DNA from: a virus
Strand: one strand, 5' to 3'
DNA: 57,071 nt
IMG/VR virus record: IMGVR_UViG_3300027963_000090
Coordinates: 1 to 57,071 of that record
Position numbers and translations under genes: made by a program. This document shows positions 6,281-42,538 of this stretch, one piece after another; the first letter of the stretch is position 1; each line of letters starts with the position of its first letter. The notes beneath the pieces were generated by a model. The model searched no databases. It was not told the origin of the DNA and was given only the letters and a program-made list of their open reading frames with translations.

Positions 6281-7779
6281 TGTTTTCAATAGATAAAAGA
6301 TCTGGCAAAAATAGAATAATGAAAAGTCCTGGACCTTATGAGGCCGTGGTAACCAGTCATTTGGATGGCAAATATTCCGGCACACTGGAAGTGGAGTTGT
6401 TAAGGTCCAATGATCCAGGCAACGAAACAGATGCAGTGAATCAGCGTGTACAAGTGAGATATCTAAATCCATTCTATGGCGTGACCAATTATGATGGTGT
6501 GACTAAAAATAATGATTATGCCAGCAGCCAACAAAGTTATGGCATGTGGTTCATACCACCAGACTTAGGCAACACAGTGCTGGTGATATTTGTGGAAGGC
6601 AACATCAACAAAGGTTATTGGTTTGGTTGTGTGCAGGCAGAAAATCAAAATTTTATGATTCCAGATGGTAGAGCTGCAACCACATACACAGATATTACTG
6701 ACAATGAAGATTTAGCAGGTAAAAAATTACCTGTGGGTGAATACAACAAAGAACTATTGGAAAATTTAAAAAACTTAACTGATTCCACTAAAAATTTAAA
6801 ACCCATCAATCAACAATTTGTGGATATATTGAACAATCAAGGATTGCTGGAAGATGAAACCAGAGGGTTAACAACCAGCAGTGCAAGACGAGAAGCACCC
6901 AGTATGGTGTTTGGAGTGAGCACTCCAGGACCATTGGACAAACGCGGCAATGCCAGAGGCAAAGGTGGTAGATATTATTCTAGATTGGGTGGCAGCAGTA
7001 TTGTAATGGATGATGGAGATGATAAATTTTTGCGTAAAACTTCAGCTGCTGAAGGTCCTTCAGACTATGTGAATAAAATCACTGCTGATGAAGAAGAAAC
7101 AGCAGATGAAACCATACCTCACAATGAATTAGTACGTATTAGAACCAGAACAGGTCATCAAATATTGTTGCACAATTCAGAAGATTTGATCTACATTGGC
7201 AATGCCAAAGGTACCACTTGGATAGAATTAACAGCCAATGGCAAAATAGATGTGTATGCCAAAGACAGCATTAGTTTTCACACAGAAACAGATTTTAATT
7301 TTAAGGCTAACAGAGATGTGAATATTGAAGCGGATCGCAATGTGAATATCAAAGCATTGAACAATGTGCAAATAGAAAGCAGTCAAAATTTAAATCTAGT
7401 GATAGGTGCTGATGGGTTTATAACCACAGGATCTAATTTGAATGTGAACAGTGCCAATAATTATTTCACATCTACCAGTGAAACTCATATTAAAAGTGAT
7501 GTTCAATACAGTTCAGGATCAGCAGCCTATTCAAATTTTCCAACAGGCGGAACAGCTGACGCTACCGCTGCAGGCAGTGCTTCCACTCTCAACACATTTA
7601 CTAATCCTGGAGAAAATTTAGAAAACATAATGAAACGTGTGCCACAGCATGAACCTTGGCCACAGCATGAAAACTTAAATCCCAATAATGTTAGTAATAA
7701 TTTAACAGACAGAGAAAATCCTGACAATATCATCGATTCCTCTTTAACTCAGATAAAAGACACTTTTACAAAAAATTAA
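6280..7779 (+). CDS. 5: gp5-like baseplate central spike protein, without a visible lysozyme domain
   Basis: Central spike of the baseplate. Residues ~12-130 look like the OB-fold domain that sits on the hub (YEAVVTSHLDGKYSGTLEV, then FIPPDLGNTVLVIFVEG). Residues ~285-400 are a VgrG/gp5-type beta-prism region of short repeats: IELTANGKIDVYAKDSISF, then NVNIEADRNVNIKALNNVQI. T4 gp5 (575 residues) carries a T4-lysozyme domain between these parts. Here the middle (about 135-280) is a low-complexity, charged linker with no Glu-Asp-Thr lysozyme motif, so peptidoglycan cleavage must come from elsewhere or not be needed. The C-terminus (from ~410) is a Ser/Thr/Asn-rich tail. It starts at the ATG overlapping the upstream stop. 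Confidence 0.8.
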   Translation: MFSIDKRSGKNRIMKSPGPYEAVVTSHLDGKYSGTLEVELLRSNDPGNETDAVNQRVQVRYLNPFYGVTNYDGVTKNNDYASSQQSYGMWFIPPDLGNTVLVIFVEGNINKGYWFGCVQAENQNFMIPDGRAATTYTDITDNEDLAGKKLPVGEYNKELLENLKNLTDSTKNLKPINQQFVDILNNQGLLEDETRGLTTSSARREAPSMVFGVSTPGPLDKRGNARGKGGRYYSRLGGSSIVMDDGDDKFLRKTSAAEGPSDYVNKITADEEETADETIPHNELVRIRTRTGHQILLHNSEDLIYIGNAKGTTWIELTANGKIDVYAKDSISFHTETDFNFKANRDVNIEADRNVNIKALNNVQIESSQNLNLVIGADGFITTGSNLNVNSANNYFTSTSETHIKSDVQYSSGSAAYSNFPTGGTADATAAGSASTLNTFTNPGENLENIMKRVPQHEPWPQHENLNPNNVSNNLTDRENPDNIIDSSLTQIKDTFTKN

Positions 7780-7794: not shown

Positions 7795-8241
7795 ATGAGC
7801 ACCAAAGAAAAAAAACTATACAAAGACATCACAGTCCGAGCCAATAAAGCACCCTCAGCACCTTTGGGTCCTAGAGCCTACAGAGGCACCAGCACTGTGG
7901 ATCCCAATGCCAACAGTTTTAATCTGTATGACATAGCACTGATCAAGCAAGATCTAATCAATTACTTTCATATACGCCAAGGGGAAAAATTAGAAAATCC
8001 TGAATTTGGTACCATTATTTGGGACGCACTGTTTGAACCTTTGACAGAAAGTATGAAACAAGCCATCATTAATAATGTCACACAGATCGTTAACTACGAC
8101 CCTAGAGTACAAGTAAACAGTGTGACTGTGGACTCTTATGAGAGTGGCATACAAATTGAGTGTGAACTTACCTACCTTCCTTACAATATTTCCCAAAGTA
8201 TGCGTTTAAAATTTGATGAAAACCAAGGATTAATCAGCTAG
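7795..8241 (+). CDS. 25: gp25-like baseplate wedge subunit
   Basis: Inner baseplate wedge protein of the GPW/gp25 family, conserved in all contractile injection systems, where it joins the wedge to the sheath and hub. The family signature is clear at about residues 45-80: IKQDLINYFHIRQGEKLENP, then EFGTIIWDALFEPLTE. It is followed by the I-x-x-Y-DPR-V stretch (about 100-107) and a C-terminal beta-hairpin. At 148 residues it is slightly longer than T4 gp25 (132) because of a ~25-residue basic N-terminal extension. No alternative start lies downstream within the extension, and no ribosome binding site is visible before ATG 7795. The sequence directly upstream is a late-promoter-like motif. Confidence 0.92.
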   Translation: MSTKEKKLYKDITVRANKAPSAPLGPRAYRGTSTVDPNANSFNLYDIALIKQDLINYFHIRQGEKLENPEFGTIIWDALFEPLTESMKQAIINNVTQIVNYDPRVQVNSVTVDSYESGIQIECELTYLPYNISQSMRLKFDENQGLIS

Positions 8242-11200: not shown

Positions 11201-11721
11201 TGTATAATAATTTTGGCAAACAGATTAATCTAATCAAATCTATCAGTGATGAAGTGATATATCATCCAGTCAAATACAAAATATTATTTGGAAACAAATC
11301 TGAATCTAAATTCCAAGCAGTGTTTAAAGTGGTTAAAAATTCCAGTGAAGTGGTCAATGATGATGATGTAAAAGTTAGAGTTATTGAAGCCATCAACGAA
11401 TATTTTGCTTTGGAAAATTGGGATTTTGGTGATATATTTTATTTTTCAGAATTAAGTGCTTACGTTATGAATCAGTTGGCACCCGACATAGTAACTTTTG
11501 TAATAGTGCCAGACCAAGCCACACAGACGTTTGGCAGTTTGTTTGAAATCAAATCTGAAAGTGATGAAATTTTTATAAGTGGCGCAACGGTTGACGACGT
11601 TGAAATAATTGATGCTGTAACGGCTTCAAGATTAAAAGCCAGTGGCACTGTGGTTTCATCCACATCCACTAGCAACGTAGGTATAACCAGTACTGCCACT
11701 TCTAGTGGGAGTACAGTTTAA
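8296..11721 (+). CDS. 6: gp6-like baseplate wedge protein
   Basis: Baseplate wedge subunit of the gp6/GpJ-like family, whose dimers form the inner iris ring of the T4 baseplate. The N-terminal ~110 residues carry the family pattern: YDFDNLRRSMINYLRQNYPE (about 31-50), FNDYLESSEYLALIDLIAFL (about 51-70), then ENFIELAERRESVLRLARLL (about 84-103). The rest is beta-rich with a C-terminal ~200-residue part (YHPVKYKILFGN onwards, ending before a Ser/Thr/Gly tail) that resembles the membrane-distal dimerisation region. At 1,141 residues it is far longer than T4 gp6 (660), but large gp6 proteins are usual in marine T4-like phages. The stop overlaps the start of the next gene as TAATG (11719-11723). 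Confidence 0.88.
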   Translation: MSSTDRLNRLLLAEDWKKVYQSFRNADFKSYDFDNLRRSMINYLRQNYPEDFNDYLESSEYLALIDLIAFLGQNIAFRIDLNARENFIELAERRESVLRLARLLSYNAKRNQAANGLLKIESVTTTEEIIDSNNVNLSNQTIIWNDPSNEDWYEQFVKVMNAVLPVNTKVGRPSKTDTVNGIPVELYQFNSNLQEVPVFSFTKSIDGRNTAFEIVSVDLNDGTVEELAPLPTNKLAFIYKDDGRGNASTNTGFFFHFRQGVLQQGEFNVNLSIPNQIVSIDATNINQSDVWLYSLDTNQTEKELWTKVSATEGNNVIYNSTAKSIRNIYSVITRTEDRINLQFADGTFGNLPKGAFRIYYRTSDNRQFKIVPGDMTNIQIVVPYVSTAGKDETLTIVLALQYTVDNATNSESDASIKTNAPSTYYTQNRMITGEDYNVAPLAVNQEIIKIKSVNRVSSGISRYFDLLDATGKYSSTNLYGKDGIIYKETINDGLTFSYVSRTDIEGIINNSIEPILSNTKLFNFYLNNFNKILITDIVITWIQTTKDTNLSTGYLTDPEDNVLEVSSFTDSILRYLEIGAKLKFEAPAGKYFTVDGKLLSGSPVEIGDSTVRWTTVINVIDNGTVTQADDSGPIIFNDVIPTGAVLVEILAKFTKYLTADVKLQMLDEIFANNTFGLRYNVDTRTWDIIDENNLNLYGDFSTGKTGDISNQQLDASWLLLFTTDTELYTVTYRGVRYVFESDKEIRFYYDSTDKNYNTTSGKVIKDKITVLSINNAPDSFEALKQDIAWQVVAEYRDAQGYVDSKKIEITFFDSDDDGLMDDPESFDNLIPANNYIYQKKIITTDGVEDYRYVNAVDENIVAVQNVASIGSYHDYTENTNFYITEDNVFKTLNVATTTLSDNSDYKAFTGRSDLKFQYVHSTDVTNRIDPSVTNIIDIYLLTRTYDSDFRSYLDGNVDSKPLPMSSDSMYNNFGKQINLIKSISDEVIYHPVKYKILFGNKSESKFQAVFKVVKNSSEVVNDDDVKVRVIEAINEYFALENWDFGDIFYFSELSAYVMNQLAPDIVTFVIVPDQATQTFGSLFEIKSESDEIFISGATVDDVEIIDAVTASRLKASGTVVSSTSTSNVGITSTATSSGSTV

Positions 11722-14700
11722 TGGCATACAATAACGATCAAGAAGAATTTCCACTTCCAGTAAACAATCAAACAGAGACAGAAAGAAACTCTGCTAATCT
11801 ACTACCTCGATTTTTTAGAACTCCCACAAATAAAAAGTTTTTATACAGCACATTGGATCAGTTATTATCTCCAGGCACTGTGGAAAAAATTAGTGCGTTC
11901 TATGGTAGAAAAACTGCCAAAGCATTCACACTTGATGACAATTATATAGAAGAAGTGACTGATGATAGACAAAACTATCAATTGGAACCTGTGGTATTGA
12001 GCAAAGACGCATTAGGCAATGTCTCTTTTTACAAAGATTACGTGGACTATGTTAATCAAATCAAAACATTGGGTGGCAACACAGACAACCACAGCAGTTT
12101 GAATGCTCAAGAATATTACAGTTGGAATCCACACATTGATTGGGACAAGTTTGTTAATTTTAGAGAATACTATTGGTTGCCACAAGGCCCAGAGACTGTC
12201 ACAATCACAGGTCAACAACAACAATTACAAAGCACTTACACAGTGAGATTGGCTGATAATTTGGACAATTATGCTTATGTATTAACTCCAGATGGACAGA
12301 CACAAAACGCCACCATTACTTTGTACAAAGGAATCACTTATAAGTTTGATATAGATACTGCAGGAATGCCTTTCACAATCAAGACAGCCAGAACATTGGA
12401 TGAAGATTTTCTTTACAATGAAGGAGTGGATCAACAATCCATAGAAAAAGGCACTATCACATTTGAAGTGGGCATAAACGCACCTGACACTTTATATTAT
12501 GTGTCTAAAAATGATATCAATGCTTATGGATTGATTAAAATTGCCAGTATTGAAGAAAATAGTATTATAAATGTTGAAAAAGACATTGTTGGCAAAAAAA
12601 CATTCACATTAAAAAATGGCACAGCATTATCCAATGGAATGAAGATTAATTTTAAAGGATTGGTCACTCCAGAAAAATATGCCACAGATGAATGGTATGT
12701 GGAAGGTGTGGGAGAAGCCATAGTATTGATCAAAGAACAAGATTTACAAGTGCCCAATGACATTGCTGATGAAAATTTAGAAGGATTTGACGCAGAAAAC
12801 TTTGATAAGGTCACTTATGAAATTGATGATCCTAACAGAGATATCAAAGATTATATTGTCATCAAAAGAAGTTCACCAGATCAAAACCCTTGGACCAGAG
12901 CCAACAAATGGATACACAAATCTGTGCTTCAAATAGTGGCTGACTACAATGGAACCACATTGGACACCGATGAAACACAAAGAGCCAAGCGTCCTATCAT
13001 AGAATTTGAATCAGGATTAAAATTATACAAATTTGGAACTCAAGCCAAACCATATGTGGATGTGGTAGATACATTTACCACAGATGTTTTTTCTGATATA
13101 GAAGGTGCCACAGGATATAATGTGGATGGTATAGATTTAGTGAATGGTATGAGAATATTAATCACTGCTGACACTGATGTTCTAGTTAAGAATAGAATAT
13201 TCACAGTAAAAATTATTAATTTTGGTGGTGATGGAGATCCTACCAACAAACAAATTTCTTTAGTGGACACAGATGACACTCAACCCATGACAGGTGATGT
13301 GGTATTAGTTGACAGCGGAGTAGAAAATCAAGGCAAAATGTACTACTATGATGGAACCGCGTGGAATGTGACTCAAGAAAAAACAAAAGTCAATCAATCA
13401 CCATTGTTTGATTTGTTTGATGAAAATGGAATTAGTTTTAGTGATGGTGAAACTTATCTTAGCACTAATTTTTTAGGCAATAAACTTTTCAGTTACAGAA
13501 AAGGCACAGGCACTGTGGACACAGAATTAGGATTTGCTCTTTCTTATAGAAACGTTAACAATGTGGGTGATATTGTGTTTGATTTTAATCTATTATCTGA
13601 ATCTTTCACATATCAATTACAGGATCAATTGGTAACTCAAAATACTGATGTGGGTTATTTAAAAAAGTACACAGATAGAACCACGAATACCACAGTTACT
13701 GGATGGATCAAAGCACAAGCTCTTAGCAAACAGTTGGTAGTGAGACAATACACAGGCTTGGAACAAGTCAACAGATTTGCTGTGGATGTGTATGATCAAA
13801 GCGGAACTCTTACAGATTTAAAATTAAAAGTTTATGTAAACAATGTATTAAAAAAAGAAACAACGGATTATACCGTTGTTAACAGCAACAATGTATCATA
13901 TGTTCAGTTGAACAGTGCGTTGTCCACCACAGATTCAATTGTTATTAAATCACACAGCTCTGCTGTGAAAAATGCCAATGGTTATTATGAAATGGCCATA
14001 AATTTAGAAAGTAATCCTTTCAATGACAACCTTAATGATTTTACATTTGGAGAAGTTTCCAATCATGTGGGAAGCATTGTGGAACAATTGGATAATTTTG
14101 TTGGATTCAATCCTGGCACAAATAATTTAAGAGATTTGGGACAATTGTCCACATACGGTACAAAATTTGTACAACACAGTGCTCCATTAAATTTAGCAGT
14201 ATACCATGTGTCACAGAAAGAAGTAAATGTGGTTAAAGCCATAAAATTTGCTCAAAAAGAATACGACAAATTTAAAAAAACATTCTTACAAACAGCAGAA
14301 AATTCTAATTTTGATGGATCTGTGCGTGAACATATGGATCATGTGATGAAATTAATCAATGAAGACAAGAACAGCAATATGCCGTTCTACTTCAGTGACA
14401 TGGTGCCTCACGGAGCAGCCAAACGCAACACATTCACTGTGTATGATGACAGCAACAAATATTTTGCTTTGAGCAAAGCATTCTCAATGAGTGTGCTTAG
14501 TACCAAAGCGGTTCAAGTTTATCTCAATGATGAACAATTAATACATGGCATTGATTACATATTCACCACAGAAAATTTCTGTTATATTACCAAAGCATTG
14601 ACTGTGAATGACACAGTGGAAATATTTGAATATGAAAGCACTGATGGTAATTTTATACCACAAACTCCTACCAAACTAGGATTGTATCCAAAATTTAAAC

Positions 14701-17700
14701 CAGAAAAATATTTGGATAATACATTAATAACTCCTGTGAATGTGATACAAGGACATGATGGCAGTATTATTGTGGCGTTTAATGATTATAGAGATGATTT
14801 ATTATTAGAATTAGAAAATAGAATTTACAATAACATTAAAATTGAATTCAATAAAGATTTGCGTAATTTGTATGATTTTATTCCAGGTGTGGATAGAAAC
14901 ACAGGATACACTTTAGCAAGCATTAATTCCAGTATGTCTGCTGATTTTATCACATGGAACAGTGCTGTGGGCACTTTAGATTACACTGAGAATTATTTTT
15001 ATGACATTGCAGATAGTTTCACTTATAACTATGCCTACATGACTGCTTATAATGGATCAAGTTTACCAGGTTTTTGGAGAGCAGTGTACAAACAAGCCTA
15101 TGACACAGATAGACCACACACTCATCCTTGGGAGATGTTGGGATTTACTGAACACCCCATTTGGTGGAACACAGTGTATGGTCCAGCACCTTACACCAGT
15201 GACAACTTAATTCTTTGGGAAGATCTTCAGAATGGTGTGATCCGAGAACCAGGTAAAAAATTAGTTTATGACAGCAGATATGTGCGAACAAATCTATTAA
15301 ATCATTTGCCTGTGGATGAAAATGGAGAATTATTGAGTCCGTTGGACAGTGGATATGCTGGAAACTACACAGTTAGTTTGAGCAATAGTGCATTTAAATT
15401 TGGAGATCATGCTCCAGTGGAAAATGCTTGGAGACGCAGTTCTAACTATCCATTTGCTCTGTTAAAATCCATGATATTAAACAGAACAGCACACACTGTG
15501 GCTGTGAACTTTGATGCTTCAAGAGTGGTAAGAAGTGTCACAGATGAAATAATTTACAGCACCACTAAAAAAAGAATCTCACTTAAAGATTTAGTATTCC
15601 CCAACAGTAGAGCAGATGAAAATTATGTGTTGACTTCAGGATTGGTAAATTACATCAGCAACTATATCAAAACAGATGTGCTGAACAATTATGCAAATTA
15701 TCAGGATTCATTAAAAAATTTAACTCAAAATTTGGGATTCAAAGTTAAAGGATTCACTGAAAAAGAAAAATTTAAATTATTATTGGACAGCAGATCTCCG
15801 TTGAATCAAAGCAATGTATTCATACCAGATGAAAACTATGATATCTATTTAAACACCAGTTCACCCATTGATGTATTAGTATACAGTGGAGTAATTGTTG
15901 AAAAATTACCATCAGGATTCTCCATCAAAGGATATGATCAATTTGATCCAATATTTAAATACTTTGCTCCTATAAAATTACAGAATGATCCAGTGAAAAG
16001 AGTGGGCGGAGTCAGCAAATCTTATGTTCAATGGACTTCAAATCATGTATACACAGCAGGACAAATAGTTCAATATCAAAATAAATTTTATATAGTTGAT
16101 AGAGATCATTTGAGTGCTTCTAAATTTGATTCCACAAAATATACCAAACTGGTGGACTTGCCTATAGAAGGTGGAGTCACTGCCACTTTTAGCAGACAAT
16201 TTGAAAACAAAATCAGCACTTTAAATTATGGCACAGTGCTGCGTACTCAACAAGAAGTGGTGGATTTTTTACTGGGTTACAGCAAATATCTTGAATCCAA
16301 AGGATTTATTTTTGAAAATTTCAATCAAGATATCAATGTTGTTGAAAATTGGAGTTTGAGTGCTCAAGAATTCATGTTCTGGACCACACAGAATTGGAAA
16401 GCTGGAGCAGTGTTGTCATTAAGTCCTGCAGCCAATAAATTAAAATTACAAACCAATTATTCAGTGGCTGACAATATATTTGATAATTTTTATGATTATG
16501 CTGTGCTTAGAGCTGACGGAATTAAACTTAATAGAGAAAAAATAAGTGTTGTGCGTCAAGGCAATAATTTTTCTATGAGTGTTAAAAACACTTCAGATGG
16601 AATTTATTTTGTAAAAATTCCATTGGTACAAAAAGAACATGTGGTGGTTATTGATAATGTCACAGTGTTCAATGATGTAATTTATGATCTAGCACCAGGA
16701 TACAGACAAGATAGAATCAAAGTGATAGGTTATGTGGCCAGCAATTGGGATGGATCTCTTAATGTGCCAGGATTTGTGTTTGATGAAGTAAAAATAAAAC
16801 AATGGCAACCATACACAGATTATGACATGAGTGATGTGGTCAAATACAAACAATTTTATTACAGTGCCAATTCATTCATAACAGGTGATAGCACATTTAT
16901 GTTCGATGAATGGTCTAAACTTTCAGAAAAACCATTGTCTTCATTAAAACCAAACTTTGAATACAAAACCAATCAGTTTGGTGATTTTTATGATTTAGAC
17001 ACAGATAATTTTGATGTGGAACAACAAAAACTTGCTCAACATTTGATAGGTTATCAAAAGAGAGAGTACTTGCAAAACATTATCAATGATGATGTGTCAC
17101 AGTACAAATTCTACCAAGGATTTTTACAAGACAAAGGAACTAAAAATGCTTTGGAAAAATTATTCAATTCATTGGCCAGTGCCAACAAAGACAGCATTGA
17201 ATTCTATGAAGAATGGGCTGTTAGAACAGGTCAATATGGTGCTGCCACAGGATTCAATGAAGTGGAATACTTGTTGTCAGAAAAAAAATTTAAATTAAAT
17301 CCACAACCAATAGAATTAACAGATTCAATTTCTTTTGAATCTCCCAACTTTGTTTACAAAATTAAATCAAACGAAACATATTTGGCTCCGGAAGATTATG
17401 ATCATGCACCGTTCCCAACCAAGTATTTTGATGAAAGTTATGTGAAAACTGCTGGATTTGTGGATCCCAATGATGTGAATTTTACTGTTAAAAATTATGA
17501 AAACATATTGGCTTTGGACACTGCTGAGTTAGCATACAATCAATATGTTTGGGTGGGATTTGAAAAACAAAGTTGGAATGTGTACAAACACAAACAATTG
17601 TCAGATCAGGTTTCATCTGTGAGTGAAAGCAACAATCAAGTGATAGTTGAACTGGTGTCCAACACTTCTAACATACAAGTGAATGAAACTATATCAGTGA

Positions 17701-20700
17701 CTTTGAATGGAACTGTTCAATTGTTCAAAGTAAAAACTGTGGCAGGCACCACCATTACTTGTTACAAGAATGGCACAACCAATCTTGGCAACAATGGAAC
17801 ATTGGGCAGATTCATCAGCATGAAATTGACCACATTATCTGAAATCAATCAAAAAATTATAGACAACGGTAAATCTGTGGGAGAATTATTGTGGATTGAA
17901 AACGATAGCAATGATCGTTGGGTTACTTTAAAAAATGTTCCTGTATGGCAAACTCATCAAGAGATAGTGAATCCAGCAGATGATTCATCAGGAGATTTTT
18001 CTAGATCCATAGCAGTGAACTTAACCAACACCACATTGGCTGTGGCAGATTTAAACAATGCTGTGTACATTTACAAAAGAGCTTCTAATTCTAATCAATA
18101 TACTTTAAGTCAAAAAATTGATGCACCAACAGGATTATGGACTGGCAATGGAGATTTTGGAGCCAGCATGGATATCAGTGCTGATGGCAAGTATCTAATA
18201 GTGGGTGCTCCAGCAGCCAGCAATTTAAAAACCAATTATGTGGGCGACTATGTTGAATCTTCATCGTATGATATCAATAACGTAGTGCGACACAGTGAAC
18301 AATTATGGAGAGTAGTCAATCCAATATTGGGTGAAGATCCTTCTGTGGATTTCACCACTTTTGATAGTGCTGCTTTTGTGTATGATGCCGAATACAATTT
18401 ACCAGATAATTTGTATCCAGATATAAAAATATTCTTGAGAGGTGATTATGTTTTTCCAGCAGTAACCACAAACCACATGTTGATCAGAGCTTCTGCAAAT
18501 CAATACAGAGGATCAGCAGTGGGAGACAAATTACAATTGATTTGGAATGATTTAACCACTCAATATCCCACAGGCAATGATCCTTTTGATGGCAATGCTC
18601 CAGGCATTGACAAAACATTCATTGATAGCAATCATGTGATTCAACACAAAGTGGATGAAATACTTAATATTGATTTGACAATTATTGCTGTGACCGTGGG
18701 AGATGTTGTGGAAACCAACACAGCTGAAGGAACTGTGTGTTATGTGCGTAAAGAAGGCACACGATCATTGATCTATTTGTCTAATATGAATGGTAAATTT
18801 GATGATTCAGGATCTTTAACTGTGGGAATATTAACTGTGGGTGATTACAACAGAGTGATTGCTGAAGATTATGACAGTTTGGGAGGTTGGTGGTACATAA
18901 ATTTAGGATTCACTTTGACTTCTACGGAATTAAGTGATTCAAAAAAATCTTTGGTAATCCAAGACATAATCAAAGCAGCTGAATCTAGAACAGTTAAAAA
19001 TTATTACAACATATTAGATACTCAAGCCACTCAAGCCATAGTATCACCCACAGCACCCACTGCTGCTTCTGAGATTTCTATTTTAAGTTACTACAAACAA
19101 TTTAGTATTGCAGGTCAACCAGTGGTATCAGGCGTTCAAAATGACAATAGATATTTGATAAGGACACCTAAAACATTGAGTAATCAATTCACTATGCCTT
19201 ATGTTTCGGACAGCAAAAAAACAGGTGTATGGTTGAACACTATTAGAACTGGAGATCCATTGGATCGATATGACATCAGTGACATATCACAAGATTTAAC
19301 TTTTGAAGAAATAAACTCTTTTGGCACAGGCGATTCTTCTTTCCCAACTAAAAAAATCAATGATATATGGAATGGATGGATTCAAGTATTAGCACAAGCA
19401 GACGGATTGGGTACATTTTATGTGCCTCAATTGGGCAATACCATAGAAGATTCTGTGACTGGATCACAGGCAGAAGTTGCTTATGTTAAAACTATTGGAT
19501 TTAATACTTTACAAATTTATATCAAAAATAAAACTGGAGATTTTTCATTAGGTTCCACACTGGGTGACACAGCTGATATCATTTTAAAAGGCATTCCTGA
19601 TAGAACTGTGGGAGTATCACGAAGAAGTGAATTGGAAAATTCAGTCACAGGCAGTTTGTTTGTGTTTGAAGCAGCCAGTCTTTTAGAACCACAAAACAAT
19701 ACTTCTACATACAATTATGTGAATGGGTTGGAATATTGGTTCTGGGATGAAGACAAGCAAGACGGTGTTGCTAGATCCGCCAGCATACCTTCTGAAGAAA
19801 ATAGAGATTATGTGCAAGTGTTTAACATACCTGTGGGTTCAGGAGCAGCATCTGCCTACACCAATGAAGGAGCATTTTTAGTGTATGAAAGAGCTGTGAA
19901 TGGCACTTATAGTTTATACAGTGCTTACAGTACACCTGACACAACAACTGATGCCAAACTGGGTACTAAAATAAAAATCACTCAAAACGGCAATGAAACC
20001 ACTGCATTTGTTTCTGATGAGTTCGGTGGCTCAGGAAGAATTTATTTCATAAAAAATAATTCCAGTCAAAAATGGCATTTGGGGGTGGATCCTCAATACA
20101 CAGGAACATTTGATGCTTTACAAAGATATTACACAGATGATTTAGTGATATACAATGAACAAGTGTACAAAAGCACAACCAATCAAGGACCTTCAGCATT
20201 TGATCCGGATTTTTGGATTTTACAAACTAATGATGTGGAATATTTAGGTCATGTGCCCAATGACAGTGGTATAACATTGGATGGTGATTCCAGTCTTGAT
20301 TTAATTAATATTTCAAAATTTGCCACAGACTTTGATGTGAGCAGCTCTGGTGGAGTGTTGGTTGCTTCTGTGAATTATACATCACCTAACAGAAACAAAG
20401 TAGTAATATACAAATTGTATGATGGAAGATATCAATACAGACAGACTATTTCACCTCCAGATGTTTCAGAAGACAACACAGAGTATGCTGTTTCAGTGGC
20501 TGTGAGCAGCGATGGTAAATTTATTGCTGTGGGCAGTCCAGCTGCTGATACAGATTACTCAGACATGGGGGTGGTATATGTGTATCAATTAGTGAATGGA
20601 TCATATGTATTGAGTCAAACATTGAGCAGTCCACAACCTCAAACCAATGAACAGTTTGGAAAAAATTTAGATTTTGATGGCAATACTTTGGTTGTGTCCA

Positions 20701-23700
20701 GTGTGAATAGATTGGATGAATCTTCCAATGTTGTGCCATCAGGGTCAGTTTATATCTATGAAAATTTCAATGACACTTTTGTATATGCTGAAACTTTTGA
20801 ATATGCCAACCAAATACTGGCAGACTTTGGAAGAGACATTTTAATCTCCAACAATCATGTGTATGTGTCATTGCCAAACTTTGATAACAATGAAGGACGC
20901 AATGGATTAGTGGTTGATTTTAGAAAAAATAGCAACACCAGCAGCTGGTTGGCACACAAATCTCCAGTGGACACTGTGGATTTGGAAAAAATCAAAGGCA
21001 TATTCCTTTACAACACAAAAATTAATGAATTACTGAATAGATTGGATTATATAGATCCTATTCAAGGAAAAATTGCTGGGTTAGCTGAACAAGAATTGTA
21101 TTACAAAACTTATTATGATCCTGCTGTTTACACTTTGGGCACTGCCGGAGTTAGTGTGGATGTCAACAACAGTTGGAGCAAAGATCAAGTGGGTAGACTA
21201 TGGTGGGATTTAAGCACTGTGAAATTTTATGATCCTTATCAAGTTAATATTATCTATACCACCAACTATTGGAATAAAATTTTCCCAGGTTCTTCCATAG
21301 ATGTATATGAATGGGTTGAATCCAAATACACTCCATCTCAATGGAATAAACTGGCTGACACCAAAGAAGGCACTGCTGTGGGTATTAGCGGAACAACCAA
21401 ATATGGAAACACAGTGTATGTGAGCCGACAATTGTATGATTCTACATCTGAAAGTTTCAGCACAAGATATTATTACTGGGTAAAAAATAAAAAAGTTTTA
21501 CCAAATATAGAATTTAGAAAATTAAGTGCTTATGATGTGGCACAATTGATTGAAGACCCTAAAAAACAATCTTATAAATTTGTGGCATTACTGTCAAATA
21601 ATAAATTTTCTTTGTATAACTGCAACAATTTAATGCAGAATGAAGATGTTGCTATTAATTTCCGTTACTGGACTATTGACAATCAAAACATTAATATTCA
21701 CAATGAATATCAATTGATCAGTGAAGGTGTATCTTACAGTCGACCTAAAAAAGAAATTGAATCAGTATGGTTTAACAGTTTGATTGGCTATGATGAAAAC
21801 TTTAAATCAGTGCCAGATGTTAATTTGAGTGTGAAATATCGTTATGGTACATTGAGAAAACCTCGTCAAAGTTGGTTTGTTAATAAAACTGAAGCTCTTA
21901 AACAAGTGGTTGAAAGAATCAATGATGTTCTATTGAAAAATCAAATTGTATCCAACTGTGATTTGACAAGATTAACAGAATCTGAAAAAATTCCAAGCAC
22001 GGTTACTAGATTGTATGATTCAACCAAAGATACACTGTCTGAATTGCAATTCATAAACACCAATAAAATTGATCAAGCAGAATTAAGACCGATCATTCAA
22101 AATGGAAAAATAGTGGATGTGACTATTATTAATCCAGGATATGGATACAATGTTGTGCCCACTTATGAAATAGTAGACACTGTGGGATCTCAAGCAAAAT
22201 TAACATTGACCATTGATGCTTTGGGCAAAATAAACAGTGTTACAGTGAATCAAGAAGGATCTAGTTACACAAATAACACAAGAATAGTTGTGAGAAAATA
22301 CAGTGTGCTGGTTAATTCAGATTTAGAAGTGAACAACAAATGGGCTATTCACAGTTGGAATGAAGATGTTCAACAGTGGCAAAGAGTATTATCACAACGT
22401 TATGATGTGAATCAATATTGGAATTATATGGATTGGTATGCTGACGGATACAATCAGTTCACTGAAATAGATCACACTGTGTCAGCCAGTTATCAACTTC
22501 AATTGATAGATGATGTTGTGGGTGATGTGGTGAAAATTGAAAACATTGGCACTGGTGGATGGTTATTGTTGGAAAAAATTGACAATCAAGACAACGTAGA
22601 CTACACAATTAATTACAAAACCATAGGTAGACAGAATGGAACCATTCAATTCTCTAGCAATTTGTATGACACCAGCACATCCACAGTAGGATACAACAGC
22701 ACCAGTTTTGACGTGATAGTGTATGACAATCAACCAGTGATAGAAACTAGAACCATTTTAGAAACTGTAAGAGATTATGTTTTTATAGATGAGTTAGCAA
22801 TTGAATACAATAAATTATTTTTCTCAAGTTTGAGATATGTGTTCAATGAACAATTGTTTGTGGATTGGGCATTCAAAACCAGTTTTGTTAAAGCCACTCA
22901 CAATGTGGGAGAATTAACACAAAAAACAGTTTACAAAAATGACAACTTGTCCAATTATCAAGATTATATCAATGAAGTAAAACCTTACAAAACCAAAGTG
23001 AGAGAATACATCAGTGCTTATGAATCCACAGATCAATCTCAAACATTGACCACAGACTTTGATCTACCAGCCACTTATGATTCGACTACCAATCAAATTA
23101 TCGTGAGCACAGCAAAAATGATCAACAATCAAATTGTTGATTCTAATCTCACTGAAAATTATCCCAACAAACACTGGTTGGACAATGTGGGATTCAAAGT
23201 TACCGCTATCAAAATAGCACAAGTGGGCAGTGGATATTTGGGAACTCCCGCCATCACAATTACAGGTGGGGGTGGCACAGGAGCCACAGCCAAAGCATTT
23301 GTGTCCAACGGCCGATTAACACACATTCAAGTGACCAATTCAGGGTCTGGTTATCTATCAGCACCCACAGTGAATATATTGGGATCTTTGTCCACCACGG
23401 GAGTGGCTGGCAAAGCAGTGGCCATATTGGGAGATTCTTTGGTCAAATCCACTCACATAAGAGTTAAATTTGATAGAACCACAGGAGTATTGCTGATAAC
23501 CAATCTGAGTAGAACAGAAACATTCACCAGCAACGGATCTCAAATCAAATATCCTTTGAAATGGCCAATCAATTTGAAATCCAACAAAGTGAGAGTGATT
23601 GTGAATCAACGCCCTGCATTGTTTAGTGAATACACATACAACAATGAACAAGACAGCACTAAATCATATGTGAGAAGCAAAGGATATATTCAATTTGTGG

Positions 23701-26345
23701 ATCCTCCAGTGAGCGGATACAGCATTGAAATTCAATATGAGATTGACAGTAATGTGTTGCAAACTCAAGATAGAGTTAATTTATTGTATGAACCTACCAC
23801 AGGACAACTGGGCAATGATCTGGCACAATTGATTGATGGCATAGATTACGGTGGAGTGGAAGTACGCAGTTTTGAATTTGGTGGTGGTGGTGGATTTGAT
23901 GATGCTCCTTATTATACAGGAGTTTGGGATTCATATGACACTACCTATGATGATGAAGTGTTTAGATTGGATGGCAGCACCAACATATTCAATTTGAGTC
24001 AACCATTGGTGGATGGTGTCACATACAACATTTATAAAAATGGAGTAAGGATTGATGATCCTAACTACGGCACAGCAGAACCAGTGACCAATCCCAATGC
24101 TTTGATGCAAACCATTCAGGGAGATGGATCTACCACAGTGATACACATAGATGAATCACTGATTCCCACAGTGAATGGTGACATCATTGTGATAAGAAAA
24201 TCCACCAGTGATGGTAGTTTCTTGCCAGACCCAGATGCCTATGACACATTATTGTCGGGCGGTGATTTGGCTTACAGCACGGCCACAGGAATTTTAGCAC
24301 AAGACATCATCGTGGATGGTGATGGGTTTGTGACTCCTACCACCAGCAAAGGTCCAGAAGAATTGGTGCCAGGACAAGTGTTGGACACTTTGGATATCCA
24401 AGTGTATGACAGATCAGGCGAAACAGGCAGCAGAATTTACAGTTACAATCATATTGCTGATGGAACCAACAATACATTCAATATTCAATCATTGCCACAG
24501 AGTCAAGATGCTGTGTTTGTGAAAGTGAATAATGTTATTTTAAACAATGATCAATATTCAACTGATTTTGAAAACAAAACAGTGATTTTAAATTCGACTC
24601 CTGCTGTGGGTTCCACAGTAAACATTGTGACCATGAGCATGAATGGAGAAAAAGTTGTTGACATTGACACATTCACTGGTGATGGTAGCACATTTATTTT
24701 TGTTACCAGAGCAGAATTTAACAACGATTACACCACTTATGTGCGTGTGAATGGTGAACCAGCAGCGTATGTGGTGGAAGAAACAGACAGTGGTTATCAA
24801 ACGGCCAATAGAATTTTAATAAGATTTGGAGCACCGCCAGCAGCTGGCAGTGTGATCAGTTATGTGGTGTATGCTAGTTCTAGCAAAACATTCAGTGAAG
24901 TTACCTATGATGATTTTGTGGGTGATGGCACAACTCGAGTTTTCACATTGAATCAATCTCCATTCAATCAAGAACCTTTGACACAAAACGTGATTGTGAA
25001 AGTGGACAACACCATATTAAATGCTGGATACAACGAATCATTTGTGGTGAGCACTGCTCGTGAATATGAATTAAACAATTGGCAGCAGCCCACAGGATCA
25101 GTGTTGAGAACCAACGTGAGAGCATTCTTGAATGGTGTGGAATTGGGAACCAATGATTACACTTGGAGTTCCAGCAACACCAGCATAACATTGAGAGGTA
25201 ATGTGGGAGTCGCAGGCGACATATTAAAAGTTTACGTGGTCAATGATGGAGAATACATAGTGGTCAACAACATTGTGACATTGGACATTGCCCCAGCAAA
25301 CAATGCTGAAATTAAAGTATGGCAATTCAGTAATCATGACATAACACAGATTGAAAGAATTAATTACGATATAGTGGCTAGAGAAAATATTGTGGTTGAT
25401 TCAGAAAATTATTTTGAATATAAAAATTTGACCAATGGATTGATTAGATTAAGACGCAGTGCTGAAGATGCTCAATATGTTTGGGTAATTGTGAATGGTC
25501 AATTGTTGTCACCCAGCATTGACTACAGAATTTCCAACAATCAACAGTATGTGAAAATTAATAGAACATTGCAACAGACGGATGTGGTGGACATTATTCA
25601 TTTTGCTGCGCCTAAATATGTGGCTAAATTTGGATTTAGACAGTTCAAAGACATGTTGAACAGAACACATTATAAACGTTTGGGCAATAATAACAAATAC
25701 TATTTGAGTCAAGAACTGCATTGGTACAGTCAAGCAATCTATTTGGAAAGCACTGAAGGATTGACAGAACCCAACATTAGTTTAAGTAAACCTGGTGTTG
25801 TGTTCGTTGATGGAGAACGTATTGAATACTTTATAAAAGCAAACAACAAACTGGAACAATTGAGAAGAGGCACACTGGGAACTGGAATCAAAGACACATA
25901 CTCAGCAGGTACAGAATTGTTTGATCAAAGTGCTTATCAAACAGTGCCTTACAAAGATGAGACTATCACTGAAACATTTGAAGGAGATGGCAGCACTGAA
26001 TCATTCACACTGCCTTTTGTACCAAATAATGTGAATGAATTTGAAGTGTTTGTGGGAGGACGCAGATTGAGAAAAAACAGCATACAATCTTACAGTGCTA
26101 CACTGGGTATGGATAGTCCTGAAGCAGACGTTACACTACCAGCAGAGTTCAGTGTGACGGGCACCACACCAATTTTAACACTATTAACTGCTCCTGCTGT
26201 AAATACTAAGGTAATTGTGGTGAAAAAAATAGGTAAATTATGGAACAGCATAGATATACCAGAAGAATCCACAATTCCATTGAGTCAAACCGAAAACGAA
26301 ATAGCAAGATTCTTGCGTGCAAAAGAAGTGAGTTTGCCGCAATAA
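11721..26345 (+). CDS. giant modular virion structural protein (4,874 residues), gp7/gp8 position in the baseplate cluster
   Basis: An exceptionally long structural protein downstream of gp6, where T4 has gp7 and gp8. The N-terminal ~150 residues (LLPRFFRTPTNKKFLYSTLD near 28-47, YSWNPHIDWDKFVNFREYYW near 133-152) are a conserved-looking head that I associate with large cyanophage/pelagiphage structural proteins. Further on I see four carbohydrate-binding-module-like segments (near 1438, 1694, 2178 and 2797). FG-GAP beta-propeller repeats lie between ~2090 and 3055 (separate entry), glycine-rich SGxGYxxxP repeats near 3834-3890 (plus a degenerate copy near 3460), and an array of GDGST repeats at 3930-4770 (separate entry). 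No transmembrane segment or protease motif was noticed. The frame is open throughout, with no frameshift. A baseplate-anchored role with surface-binding modules is inferred; the wedge equivalence is by position only. Confidence 0.8.
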   Translation: MAYNNDQEEFPLPVNNQTETERNSANLLPRFFRTPTNKKFLYSTLDQLLSPGTVEKISAFYGRKTAKAFTLDDNYIEEVTDDRQNYQLEPVVLSKDALGNVSFYKDYVDYVNQIKTLGGNTDNHSSLNAQEYYSWNPHIDWDKFVNFREYYWLPQGPETVTITGQQQQLQSTYTVRLADNLDNYAYVLTPDGQTQNATITLYKGITYKFDIDTAGMPFTIKTARTLDEDFLYNEGVDQQSIEKGTITFEVGINAPDTLYYVSKNDINAYGLIKIASIEENSIINVEKDIVGKKTFTLKNGTALSNGMKINFKGLVTPEKYATDEWYVEGVGEAIVLIKEQDLQVPNDIADENLEGFDAENFDKVTYEIDDPNRDIKDYIVIKRSSPDQNPWTRANKWIHKSVLQIVADYNGTTLDTDETQRAKRPIIEFESGLKLYKFGTQAKPYVDVVDTFTTDVFSDIEGATGYNVDGIDLVNGMRILITADTDVLVKNRIFTVKIINFGGDGDPTNKQISLVDTDDTQPMTGDVVLVDSGVENQGKMYYYDGTAWNVTQEKTKVNQSPLFDLFDENGISFSDGETYLSTNFLGNKLFSYRKGTGTVDTELGFALSYRNVNNVGDIVFDFNLLSESFTYQLQDQLVTQNTDVGYLKKYTDRTTNTTVTGWIKAQALSKQLVVRQYTGLEQVNRFAVDVYDQSGTLTDLKLKVYVNNVLKKETTDYTVVNSNNVSYVQLNSALSTTDSIVIKSHSSAVKNANGYYEMAINLESNPFNDNLNDFTFGEVSNHVGSIVEQLDNFVGFNPGTNNLRDLGQLSTYGTKFVQHSAPLNLAVYHVSQKEVNVVKAIKFAQKEYDKFKKTFLQTAENSNFDGSVREHMDHVMKLINEDKNSNMPFYFSDMVPHGAAKRNTFTVYDDSNKYFALSKAFSMSVLSTKAVQVYLNDEQLIHGIDYIFTTENFCYITKALTVNDTVEIFEYESTDGNFIPQTPTKLGLYPKFKPEKYLDNTLITPVNVIQGHDGSIIVAFNDYRDDLLLELENRIYNNIKIEFNKDLRNLYDFIPGVDRNTGYTLASINSSMSADFITWNSAVGTLDYTENYFYDIADSFTYNYAYMTAYNGSSLPGFWRAVYKQAYDTDRPHTHPWEMLGFTEHPIWWNTVYGPAPYTSDNLILWEDLQNGVIREPGKKLVYDSRYVRTNLLNHLPVDENGELLSPLDSGYAGNYTVSLSNSAFKFGDHAPVENAWRRSSNYPFALLKSMILNRTAHTVAVNFDASRVVRSVTDEIIYSTTKKRISLKDLVFPNSRADENYVLTSGLVNYISNYIKTDVLNNYANYQDSLKNLTQNLGFKVKGFTEKEKFKLLLDSRSPLNQSNVFIPDENYDIYLNTSSPIDVLVYSGVIVEKLPSGFSIKGYDQFDPIFKYFAPIKLQNDPVKRVGGVSKSYVQWTSNHVYTAGQIVQYQNKFYIVDRDHLSASKFDSTKYTKLVDLPIEGGVTATFSRQFENKISTLNYGTVLRTQQEVVDFLLGYSKYLESKGFIFENFNQDINVVENWSLSAQEFMFWTTQNWKAGAVLSLSPAANKLKLQTNYSVADNIFDNFYDYAVLRADGIKLNREKISVVRQGNNFSMSVKNTSDGIYFVKIPLVQKEHVVVIDNVTVFNDVIYDLAPGYRQDRIKVIGYVASNWDGSLNVPGFVFDEVKIKQWQPYTDYDMSDVVKYKQFYYSANSFITGDSTFMFDEWSKLSEKPLSSLKPNFEYKTNQFGDFYDLDTDNFDVEQQKLAQHLIGYQKREYLQNIINDDVSQYKFYQGFLQDKGTKNALEKLFNSLASANKDSIEFYEEWAVRTGQYGAATGFNEVEYLLSEKKFKLNPQPIELTDSISFESPNFVYKIKSNETYLAPEDYDHAPFPTKYFDESYVKTAGFVDPNDVNFTVKNYENILALDTAELAYNQYVWVGFEKQSWNVYKHKQLSDQVSSVSESNNQVIVELVSNTSNIQVNETISVTLNGTVQLFKVKTVAGTTITCYKNGTTNLGNNGTLGRFISMKLTTLSEINQKIIDNGKSVGELLWIENDSNDRWVTLKNVPVWQTHQEIVNPADDSSGDFSRSIAVNLTNTTLAVADLNNAVYIYKRASNSNQYTLSQKIDAPTGLWTGNGDFGASMDISADGKYLIVGAPAASNLKTNYVGDYVESSSYDINNVVRHSEQLWRVVNPILGEDPSVDFTTFDSAAFVYDAEYNLPDNLYPDIKIFLRGDYVFPAVTTNHMLIRASANQYRGSAVGDKLQLIWNDLTTQYPTGNDPFDGNAPGIDKTFIDSNHVIQHKVDEILNIDLTIIAVTVGDVVETNTAEGTVCYVRKEGTRSLIYLSNMNGKFDDSGSLTVGILTVGDYNRVIAEDYDSLGGWWYINLGFTLTSTELSDSKKSLVIQDIIKAAESRTVKNYYNILDTQATQAIVSPTAPTAASEISILSYYKQFSIAGQPVVSGVQNDNRYLIRTPKTLSNQFTMPYVSDSKKTGVWLNTIRTGDPLDRYDISDISQDLTFEEINSFGTGDSSFPTKKINDIWNGWIQVLAQADGLGTFYVPQLGNTIEDSVTGSQAEVAYVKTIGFNTLQIYIKNKTGDFSLGSTLGDTADIILKGIPDRTVGVSRRSELENSVTGSLFVFEAASLLEPQNNTSTYNYVNGLEYWFWDEDKQDGVARSASIPSEENRDYVQVFNIPVGSGAASAYTNEGAFLVYERAVNGTYSLYSAYSTPDTTTDAKLGTKIKITQNGNETTAFVSDEFGGSGRIYFIKNNSSQKWHLGVDPQYTGTFDALQRYYTDDLVIYNEQVYKSTTNQGPSAFDPDFWILQTNDVEYLGHVPNDSGITLDGDSSLDLINISKFATDFDVSSSGGVLVASVNYTSPNRNKVVIYKLYDGRYQYRQTISPPDVSEDNTEYAVSVAVSSDGKFIAVGSPAADTDYSDMGVVYVYQLVNGSYVLSQTLSSPQPQTNEQFGKNLDFDGNTLVVSSVNRLDESSNVVPSGSVYIYENFNDTFVYAETFEYANQILADFGRDILISNNHVYVSLPNFDNNEGRNGLVVDFRKNSNTSSWLAHKSPVDTVDLEKIKGIFLYNTKINELLNRLDYIDPIQGKIAGLAEQELYYKTYYDPAVYTLGTAGVSVDVNNSWSKDQVGRLWWDLSTVKFYDPYQVNIIYTTNYWNKIFPGSSIDVYEWVESKYTPSQWNKLADTKEGTAVGISGTTKYGNTVYVSRQLYDSTSESFSTRYYYWVKNKKVLPNIEFRKLSAYDVAQLIEDPKKQSYKFVALLSNNKFSLYNCNNLMQNEDVAINFRYWTIDNQNINIHNEYQLISEGVSYSRPKKEIESVWFNSLIGYDENFKSVPDVNLSVKYRYGTLRKPRQSWFVNKTEALKQVVERINDVLLKNQIVSNCDLTRLTESEKIPSTVTRLYDSTKDTLSELQFINTNKIDQAELRPIIQNGKIVDVTIINPGYGYNVVPTYEIVDTVGSQAKLTLTIDALGKINSVTVNQEGSSYTNNTRIVVRKYSVLVNSDLEVNNKWAIHSWNEDVQQWQRVLSQRYDVNQYWNYMDWYADGYNQFTEIDHTVSASYQLQLIDDVVGDVVKIENIGTGGWLLLEKIDNQDNVDYTINYKTIGRQNGTIQFSSNLYDTSTSTVGYNSTSFDVIVYDNQPVIETRTILETVRDYVFIDELAIEYNKLFFSSLRYVFNEQLFVDWAFKTSFVKATHNVGELTQKTVYKNDNLSNYQDYINEVKPYKTKVREYISAYESTDQSQTLTTDFDLPATYDSTTNQIIVSTAKMINNQIVDSNLTENYPNKHWLDNVGFKVTAIKIAQVGSGYLGTPAITITGGGGTGATAKAFVSNGRLTHIQVTNSGSGYLSAPTVNILGSLSTTGVAGKAVAILGDSLVKSTHIRVKFDRTTGVLLITNLSRTETFTSNGSQIKYPLKWPINLKSNKVRVIVNQRPALFSEYTYNNEQDSTKSYVRSKGYIQFVDPPVSGYSIEIQYEIDSNVLQTQDRVNLLYEPTTGQLGNDLAQLIDGIDYGGVEVRSFEFGGGGGFDDAPYYTGVWDSYDTTYDDEVFRLDGSTNIFNLSQPLVDGVTYNIYKNGVRIDDPNYGTAEPVTNPNALMQTIQGDGSTTVIHIDESLIPTVNGDIIVIRKSTSDGSFLPDPDAYDTLLSGGDLAYSTATGILAQDIIVDGDGFVTPTTSKGPEELVPGQVLDTLDIQVYDRSGETGSRIYSYNHIADGTNNTFNIQSLPQSQDAVFVKVNNVILNNDQYSTDFENKTVILNSTPAVGSTVNIVTMSMNGEKVVDIDTFTGDGSTFIFVTRAEFNNDYTTYVRVNGEPAAYVVEETDSGYQTANRILIRFGAPPAAGSVISYVVYASSSKTFSEVTYDDFVGDGTTRVFTLNQSPFNQEPLTQNVIVKVDNTILNAGYNESFVVSTAREYELNNWQQPTGSVLRTNVRAFLNGVELGTNDYTWSSSNTSITLRGNVGVAGDILKVYVVNDGEYIVVNNIVTLDIAPANNAEIKVWQFSNHDITQIERINYDIVARENIVVDSENYFEYKNLTNGLIRLRRSAEDAQYVWVIVNGQLLSPSIDYRISNNQQYVKINRTLQQTDVVDIIHFAAPKYVAKFGFRQFKDMLNRTHYKRLGNNNKYYLSQELHWYSQAIYLESTEGLTEPNISLSKPGVVFVDGERIEYFIKANNKLEQLRRGTLGTGIKDTYSAGTELFDQSAYQTVPYKDETITETFEGDGSTESFTLPFVPNNVNEFEVFVGGRRLRKNSIQSYSATLGMDSPEADVTLPAEFSVTGTTPILTLLTAPAVNTKVIVVKKIGKLWNSIDIPEESTIPLSQTENEIARFLRAKEVSLPQ
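17988..20880 (+). repeat. FG-GAP-type beta-propeller repeats inside the giant structural protein
   Basis: Repeats of the form F-G-x-S-(hydrophobic)-x-x-(S/D)-x-D-G-x-x-(hydrophobic)-x-V-G-(A/S)-P ending in a YVYxxxNGxYxxSQ-like strand. Starts are near protein residues 2090, 2144, 2864, 2920, 2976 and 3032, with a weaker one near 2747. Clear examples are GDFGASMDISADGKYLIVGA (2144) and AVSVAVSSDGKFIAVGSP (about 2925). Spacing within each group is 54-56 residues, but the second and third clear repeats are ~720 residues apart, so the propeller appears split by a large insert. Integrin-like propellers of this kind often bind glycans or proteins. Confidence 0.7.
23514..26090 (+). repeat. GDGST-type beta-module array near the C-terminus of the giant structural protein
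   Basis: Seven copies of a short motif, (T/F)-F-x-G-D-G-S/T-T-x-x-F-x-L followed by a strand such as VxVNGxxL. They lie near protein residues 3932 (degenerate), 4077, 4130, 4242 (degenerate), 4315, 4397 and 4751. Examples are DTFTGDGSTFIFVT, DDFVGDGTTRVFTL and ETFEGDGSTESFTL. They are diverged at DNA level, so this is an old tandem expansion. I read them as a string of small beta-sandwich modules forming a fibre-like distal part. Confidence 0.7.
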
Positions 26346-26367: not shown

Positions 26368-26982
26368 ATGATAGATAAACTTAAAGAACACAACGGAACA
26401 CTAATCCAAGGACACATCAAAATACACGACCCTAAAACGGGCGAAATATTCGTCAACAAACGCAATGCCATACACTACGAAAATATGAGCATAGCAATGG
26501 CAGAAAGTTTGGCCAATGAAGGTCAAGGATTTATCAATTCCATGGTGTTTGGAACTGGTGGAACTTATATTGATCCCACTGGCATAGTGACTTATCTAAC
26601 TCCTAATTCCACAGGAACCAATGCCACTTTATACAATCAAACATTCAGCAAAGTGGTGGATGACAGATCAGTCAGCAACACAGATCCAGTGAGAAACAAA
26701 ATTGAAACACGTCACGTGAACGGAACCAATTACACAGATATTTTAGTCACATGTTTATTGGACTATGGTGAGCCCAGCGGTCAAGATGCAGTAGATGCTG
26801 CTTCAAACACAGAAAATTTATATGTGTTTGACGAGTTAGGATTACAAAGTTATTCCAGTTCAGGCACAGGAAGATTATTAACACATGTAATTTTTCACCC
26901 TGTACAAAAAAGTTTAAACAGATTAATACAAATAGATTACACAGTTAGAATACAAAGTCTGTCAGGTTTTAACGAGGTATAA
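26368..26982 (+). CDS. conserved virion structural protein, baseplate/fibre-associated (function unknown)
   Basis: A 204-residue protein between the giant structural protein and the fibre genes. I recognise it as a family present in T4-like marine phages at this position, with segments GHIKIHDPKTGEIFVNKRNA (about 15-34) and IHYENMSIAMAESLAN (35-50). It also has a DYGEPSGQDAVDAA stretch (about 132-145) and a VFDELGL near 153-159. It has no T4 name that I can defend. It is beta-rich with one amphipathic helix (about 38-52). Possible roles are a fibre-attachment or wedge-peripheral protein. The start is fixed by AAAAGGA five bases upstream and by its own late promoter, which suggests it needs a higher dose than the giant protein before it. 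Confidence 0.6.
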   Translation: MIDKLKEHNGTLIQGHIKIHDPKTGEIFVNKRNAIHYENMSIAMAESLANEGQGFINSMVFGTGGTYIDPTGIVTYLTPNSTGTNATLYNQTFSKVVDDRSVSNTDPVRNKIETRHVNGTNYTDILVTCLLDYGEPSGQDAVDAASNTENLYVFDELGLQSYSSSGTGRLLTHVIFHPVQKSLNRLIQIDYTVRIQSLSGFNEV

Positions 26983-42530: not shown

Positions 42531-42538
42531 ATACTGTT

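Follow-up and report, generated by a model that had tools for sequence, protein, structure and literature searches.

A giant structural-family protein encoded directly after gp6 as a candidate phage baseplate-wedge subunit

A giant gene directly downstream of gp6

The window analysed here is the whole of a linear 57-kb IMG/VR fragment (57,071 nucleotides). Genes for a gp53-like baseplate wedge protein, a gp5-like hub protein, gp25 and gp6 are followed by a single giant reading frame, whose modules are listed together with its neighbours in Table 1. The ATG of the giant gene at 11721 shares one nucleotide with the TAA stop codon of gp6 ('tttaatgg'), and the frame runs through 4,874 codons with zero internal stops to its own stop codon at 26343-26345. 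The predicted product has a computed mass of 549 kDa and a pI of 4.75. An earlier sequence-only reading of this DNA had described one uninterrupted frame directly after gp6 and a mass above half a megadalton, and both descriptions were borne out. In comparison with a relative of ~70% identity (L007), dN/dS was 0.16-0.34 in each 400-codon segment, so the entire frame is coding sequence under purifying selection. The relatives' frame also stays open in 37 of 37 IMG/VR records from a distal-core search which, together with the low dN/dS throughout, argues that the frame did not arise by chance.

The wedge-type position claimed for the giant held up across its relatives. The order gp25-gp6-giant seen in the window recurred in each of the 78 IMG/VR loci that included gp6, where the giant started -1 to +21 nt from the end of gp6, and the giant followed gp6 in nearly all isolates. 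An exception was SCTP-2, in which gp6 lies ~90 kb away from the giant. Immediately ahead of its phrog_10938 giant, SCTP-2 (L003, 6630-15920) also encodes a second one of 3,096 aa, assigned to phrog_8401 (beta-propeller repeat protein). Downstream of the giant gene in the window, the 204-aa protein p204 showed no gp8 similarity; it is encoded directly or nearly directly after the giant in five relatives other than RaK2. The three fibre-type genes that come next have in common an N-terminal domain (phrog_14394/15511), likely a common attachment domain.

Table 1. Baseplate-region genes of the window and modules of the giant protein
Feature	Position (nt)	Strand	Basis or remark
gp53-like baseplate wedge protein	3749..4051	+	phrog_7145
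gp5-like hub protein	6280..7779	+	phrog_13211
gp25	7795..8241	+	profile match
gp6, 1,141 aa	8296..11721	+	phrog_10646 E 8e-299; phrog_219
Giant ORF, 4,874 aa, 549 kDa	11721..26345	+	phrog_10938, E 0
Conserved N-terminal head, residues 1-160	11721..12200	+	'LLPRFFRT..NKKFL..TLDQL', '..NPHIDWDKFVNFREYYWLP'
Cupredoxin-fold module, residues 163-282	12207..12566	+	VIA-align
First large conserved core block, residues 377-1870	12849..17330	+	relatives' alignments
CBM5/12 (chitin-binding type 3), residues 1437-1465	16029..16115	+	Pfam and fold
Helical segment with K1805-G1806, residues 1743-1845	16947..17255	+	KGT at 17133-17141; candidate wedge signature
FG-GAP (propeller-type) region, ~residues 2100-3120, approximate boundaries	18018..21080	+	Pfam
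Extra insert in FG-GAP region, residues 2203-2711	18327..19853	+	isolate/relative alignment
Second conserved core block, residues 3060-3800	20898..23120	+	relatives' alignments
Gly-rich 'GxGY..P' repeat module, residues 3776-3935	23046..23525	+	phrog_460 match
C-terminal tail, four 'GDG[ST]T' modules, residues 4128-4874	24102..26342	+	sequence inspection
'..VDGERIEY..LRRGTLGT..' module, residues 4647-4724	25659..25892	+	hhalign to cyanophage gp7
p204, 204 aa, phrog_11259	26368..26982	+	profile match
Three consecutive fibre-type genes, 670, 721 and 479 aa	26989..32642	+	profile matches

Farther along the window, downstream of the tail genes, positions 37895-47132 code for a protein of the Asp/Asn beta-hydroxylase type and for five members of the radical SAM group, two of which have SPASM domains. 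A radical SAM gene is likewise found in Phosso and Atu_ph07, a few genes past the giant. Such proteins could modify a phage protein or a surface molecule. A class III aminotransferase gene (52629-53747, E 6.6e-35) was found amid unassigned genes.

The giant belongs to a known family of jumbo-phage proteins

In a profile search the giant matched phrog_10938, 'virion structural protein', in four stretches (E 0, 1120.8 bits); the protein of this family is the largest gene in RaK2-like and other jumbo phages. A tblastn search with residues 1-1400 returned 62 phage records, mostly jumbo phages, including RaK2, K64-1, PBECO4/121Q, CBB, GAP32 and Munch as well as PA5oct and its kin, Atu_ph07, Phosso, SCTP-2 and Vibrio 2.275.O, and the middle and C-terminal thirds of the protein returned 57 records each. 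The IMG/VR scan with the giant gave 312 matching stretches, from which 80 loci were retrieved for comparison; a scan of viral contigs based on RaK2 returned RaK2 alone.

The giants of 12 translated isolates ranged from 3,313 to 4,555 aa (RaK2 ORF070, 3,326 aa; CBB_236, 3,340 aa; PA5oct gp355, 3,857 aa; Atu_ph07 gp180, 4,449 aa; Phosso, 4,555 aa), and phAPEC6 gp245 is also a member. Giants complete within the retrieved IMG/VR loci had 4,071-4,648 aa, and frames of the same family reached 5,633 aa on longer contigs. By the standard of its own clade the window giant is therefore unremarkable in size: it is a real protein of an already known family and not the largest of its kind. The description of it as among the largest phage virion proteins was overstated, given these frames of up to 5,633 aa and a cyanophage counterpart, in S-SM1, of 6,180 aa.

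Two annotations depart from a single giant gene: the K64-1 record (NC_027399) breaks the gene up into many small hypothetical proteins and that of SD-2_S15 (OR699181) into two proteins. Both splits are probably annotation or sequencing artefacts. Two near-identical contigs (L006 and L008) differ from the window almost only at 22521-24920, corresponding to residues 3601-4400, where pS was 0.22 and then 0.07, compared to about 0 elsewhere. This difference looks like local allele exchange inside one population.

Mass spectrometry of virions has detected several members of the family. In phAPEC6, gp245 (381.88 kDa), which adjoins and follows the baseplate wedge protein gp244, was identified by 17 unique peptides covering 7.6% (PMC7247149). 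In CBB, 21 peptides covered 7.72% of CBB_236 (PMC5259590), which our analysis matched as that phage's family member, and the database record of PA5oct gp355 bears an ESI-MS/MS mark. Presence in the virion is established for these relatives of the window protein. Since the coverage in relatives is ~7-8%, there is room for processing of the chain, and the giant might be a polyprotein-like precursor cut into a wedge protein (~1-1870), a propeller protein and a tail/fibre protein, leaving no 549-kDa chain in the virion. A variable region between two conserved blocks, like the low coverage, would fit such cleavage. However, the gene is one frame in 37 of 37 records and in 12 of 12 translated isolates, and, apart from the likely annotation artefacts, no case was seen of the gene divided into two functional parts; we regard a precursor as very unlikely.

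Binding modules are carried on a conserved two-block core

Comparison with isolates divided the chain into two conserved core blocks, residues 1-1870 and 3060-3800, with variable stretches between and after them. The N-terminal 1,870 residues retain 22-30% identity across very different hosts. The structure model and fold searches covered the residues before 2051, and domain prediction was run along the chain. The sequence-only reading had seen several recognisable binding modules, and two of these, CBM5/12 and FG-GAP, indeed exceeded Pfam cut-offs.

The first 160 residues were mostly helical in the structure model, at low confidence, and are a candidate part of the core bundle. The module that follows has a cupredoxin fold (2dv6 by VIA-align: Z 11.4, rmsd 2.3, 100 residues aligned). 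It contains no His and no Cys, so the fold is without a type-1 copper site, which needs two His and one Cys. The module is missing from RaK2-type relatives, where the alignment shows a gap in RaK2, and gave weak tblastn matches to cyanophage tail proteins. The CBM5/12 domain at 1437-1465 scored 31.2 bits against a Pfam cut-off of 26.2 and was found in 8 of 10 relatives. Its fold resembled that of the chitin-binding domain 1ed7 (TMt 0.73) and of 3wx7 (Z 7.2, 45 residues aligned, rmsd 1.2).

The FG-GAP region was recognised by two stretches matching FG-GAP_2 (34.1 bits against a cut-off of 23), with the above-cut-off match at 2968-3013. It is the fastest-evolving, lineage-specific part of the giant: relative to L007, identity was 52-60% and dN/dS 0.28-0.34 in this zone, compared to 67-78% and 0.16-0.23 elsewhere. 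The ~500-residue insert within it is not present in four close relatives (L045, L050, L055 and L056).

Toward the C-terminus, the match of the Gly-rich module to phrog_460, 'head closure Hc2', was rejected as an identity, being a module or composition match at the GxGY repeats, and a match of the giant to ribosomal L21 was rejected on the same grounds. Phrog_460 also matches a cyanophage gp7 (L095) at Gly-rich GxGY repeats; since it matches both giants, the 'head closure Hc2' label can mislead the annotation of large tail proteins. The C-terminal tail gave a weak match to the T7 tail-fibre N-domain, below the Pfam cut-off.

The length of the chain, its repeats and the weak tail-fibre domain matches would suit an extended adsorption fibre, such as a side tail fibre or whisker, instead of a wedge component, and the hairy phages CBB and phAPEC6 both have relatives of the giant (PMC5259590, PMC7247149). 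However, the whiskers of CBB are described as atypical (PMC5259590), whereas the giant protein is group-wide. Its N-terminal 1,870 residues, unlike fibres, are conserved across very different hosts, and three separate fibre genes come after it. A fibre or whisker therefore seems extremely unlikely.

Sequence evidence on a possible link between the giant and gp7, gpI and Tri2

K1805-G1806 is the sole Lys-Gly pair of the window protein that is invariant in 10 of 10 diverse relatives. In the giant family it lies in the context 'FYQGFLQDKGTKNALEKLFNSL', and a helix-KG[TS]-helix motif is also found in T4 gp7, cyanophage gp7, P2 gpI and the pyocin Tri2 protein PA0619. The full motif pattern was present in 8 of the 10 relatives, the other two keeping the Lys-Gly only; when the window protein was shuffled 2000 times, the pattern arose in 65 of the products. 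In the AlphaFold model the pair is flanked by helices at 1792-1803 and 1808-1818, with pLDDT <50. Low confidence here and at the N-terminal helices would be expected if these helices need gp6 in order to fold, yet is no evidence that they do.

To compare the giant family with gp7, 150-residue windows of the family alignment (n=95) were slid along a gp7 profile led by the T4 protein. Ranks one to three of the 95 went to the three windows that hold the KGT, and the best of them beat 95 of 95 reversed and 150 of 150 column-shuffled controls. When the profile was led by a cyanophage protein instead, one reversed and one shuffled control reached the observed score. The E-value of the best KGT window was ~0.02-0.03, making the profile similarity to gp7 only suggestive. 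Two local matches involved cyanophage proteins. Residues 4647-4724 of the giant aligned with residues 54-131 of a cyanophage gp7 (hhalign probability 83, E 8.5e-6), scoring 44.1 compared to 23.0 for the best reversed control, and the N-terminus of a cyanophage giant aligned with T4 gp7 727-790 at 'FYxxKG[TI]xxS' (hhalign E 1.4e-4).

Other searches for wedge proteins were negative. BLASTP of the giant and its neighbours against T4 baseplate proteins gave no real match for the giant, and neither did hhalign against gp6-gp11 and gp53. No similarity was found in a profile comparison with P2 gpI, no overall match to cyanophage gp7 was found, and a Pfam search to E 10 of the KGT segment and the N-terminus returned neither Tail_P2_I nor the gp7 family. 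Searching PDB sequences with the N-terminal region (phmmer and hmmsearch) found nothing. A gp7 fold was absent among the Foldseek and VIA-align matches listed, but this absence carries little weight, given the poor prediction of the helical contact regions (pLDDT <50). No part of the giant showed similarity to gp8 (hhalign probability 0.1). Of the earlier proposal that the giant sits where T4 has gp7/gp8, the gp7 part is favoured by the gene order, the gp7 annotations of cyanophage counterparts and the KG motif; the gp8 part found no similarity to stand on.

The lack of robust similarity to gp7 or gpI, the binding modules and two neighbours without an assigned role (p741 and p204) would also fit a peripheral baseplate or arm protein that is not homologous to gp7 and lies outside the wedge, like gp9-gp10, with another protein serving as the third chain. 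Against this, P2, T4 and cyanophages encode the third chain directly after gp6/J, and within the giant family the Lys-Gly motif does not vary. We consider a peripheral location unlikely.

A proposed third chain of the baseplate wedge

Wedges of contractile tails combine two chains of the gp6 type with a single chain of the gp7/gpI/Tri2 type. In XM1 the wedge is (gp16)2-gp17, homologous to (gp6)2-gp7 of T4, and gp17, a 242-aa orthologue of T4 gp7, is the protein that holds the tail spikes (PMC10457771). As XM1 gp17 is small yet holds spikes, size and appendage binding vary in the third wedge subunit. The wedge of A-1(L) is (gp31)2-gp32 (PMC10966104). In T4, gp7 is monomeric, occurs in six copies and binds gp8, gp6, gp9 and gp10 (PMC3004832).

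We propose that the giant is probably the third baseplate-wedge chain, with the function of T4 gp7, P2 gpI and Tri2, expanded by surface-binding modules. Position and motif agree on this, with marginal profile evidence; the location of the SCTP-2 giant away from gp6 was counted against the proposal. A single copy in each wedge, or six in the virion, would join two gp6 chains via its N-terminal helices and the helices around the KGT (1743-1845), completing a (gp6)2-X wedge beneath gp25. The remainder of the two conserved blocks would form a scaffold doing the work that T4 splits among gp7-gp10. The cupredoxin fold, CBM5/12, FG-GAP region and repeat-rich C-terminus would point outward, touching the host surface and/or anchoring the downstream fibres. 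The stoichiometry, the gp6 contacts and host binding are all inferred. The suggestion that the giant acts as a host-binding arm is plausible at the sequence level, because its chain carries the lineage-specific part that evolves fastest as well as modules of carbohydrate-binding type.

A more tentative extension, which we think somewhat doubtful, is a split wedge domain in which helices 1-160 and the KGT helices at 1743-1845 pack together, with ~1,600 residues of binding domains looped out. The loop-out site would correspond to the spike-holding place in smaller homologues (XM1 gp17 residues 80-106), and a single chain extending between the contraction trigger and the receptor-binding surface would stand in for several peripheral proteins of T4.

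If the giant is the third wedge chain, this one subunit spans 176 aa (P2) to ~6,200 aa (S-SM1). RaK2-like/PA5oct-like phages and cyanophages, two sets of large myophages whose giant proteins are without overall sequence similarity to each other, would both have made the wedge subunit a giant module carrier. In many jumbo phages the largest gene is at present labelled just 'structural' or 'hypothetical'; the proposal would assign it a role that can be tested, and the FG-GAP region is a suggested place to look for host-range variation.

Comparison with known systems

P2 gpI, Tri2 PA0619 and XM1 gp17 are third wedge chains encoded, like the giant, beside a gpJ/gp6-type gene, and P2 gpI and PA0619 have the KGT motif as in the window giant; these proteins have only 176-242 aa and are without binding modules of the giant's kind. 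T4 gp7 (1,032 aa) is encoded directly after gp6, with which its gene overlaps, and has the helix-KG-helix motif. Gene I of P2 overlaps J just as gene 7 of T4 overlaps 6, the same overlapping order as that of the giant and gp6. The giant is nearly five times longer than T4 gp7, to which it has no significant sequence match, and unlike in T4, no gp8 gene was recognised next to it.

In Kyanoviridae, giants of ~3,400-6,200 residues occupy the gp25-gp6-X position, several of them annotated as gp7 or 'baseplate wedge initiator'. Those of Synechococcus phages annotated as gp7 or baseplate wedge include Sf-CH8 (4,878 aa), ACG-2014f (4,225 aa), S-SM2 (4,156 aa), Bellamy (4,067 aa) and S-8S55 (3,891 aa). 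The S-SM1 counterpart (55821-74363, 6,180 aa) bears the annotation 'virion structural protein T4-GC969' and was detected in the purified virion (PMC3037559). The cyanophage giants share with the window giant their position, size class, KGT motif and C-terminal-type module, whereas overall sequence similarity is absent. The KGT lies at ~residue 200 of cyanophage gp7 (~700 in S-SM1), compared to 1805 in the window giant, and the downstream gene is gp8 in cyanophages and that of the 204-aa protein in the window.

The closest likeness is to the phrog_10938 relatives. Between the two blocks RaK2 has ~130 aa, where the window giant has the FG-GAP region with its 500-aa insert, and the window giant differs further in its cupredoxin-fold insert and longer C-terminal tail. 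These relatives have in common with it the two-block core, the place after gp6 and, in most of them, CBM5/12.
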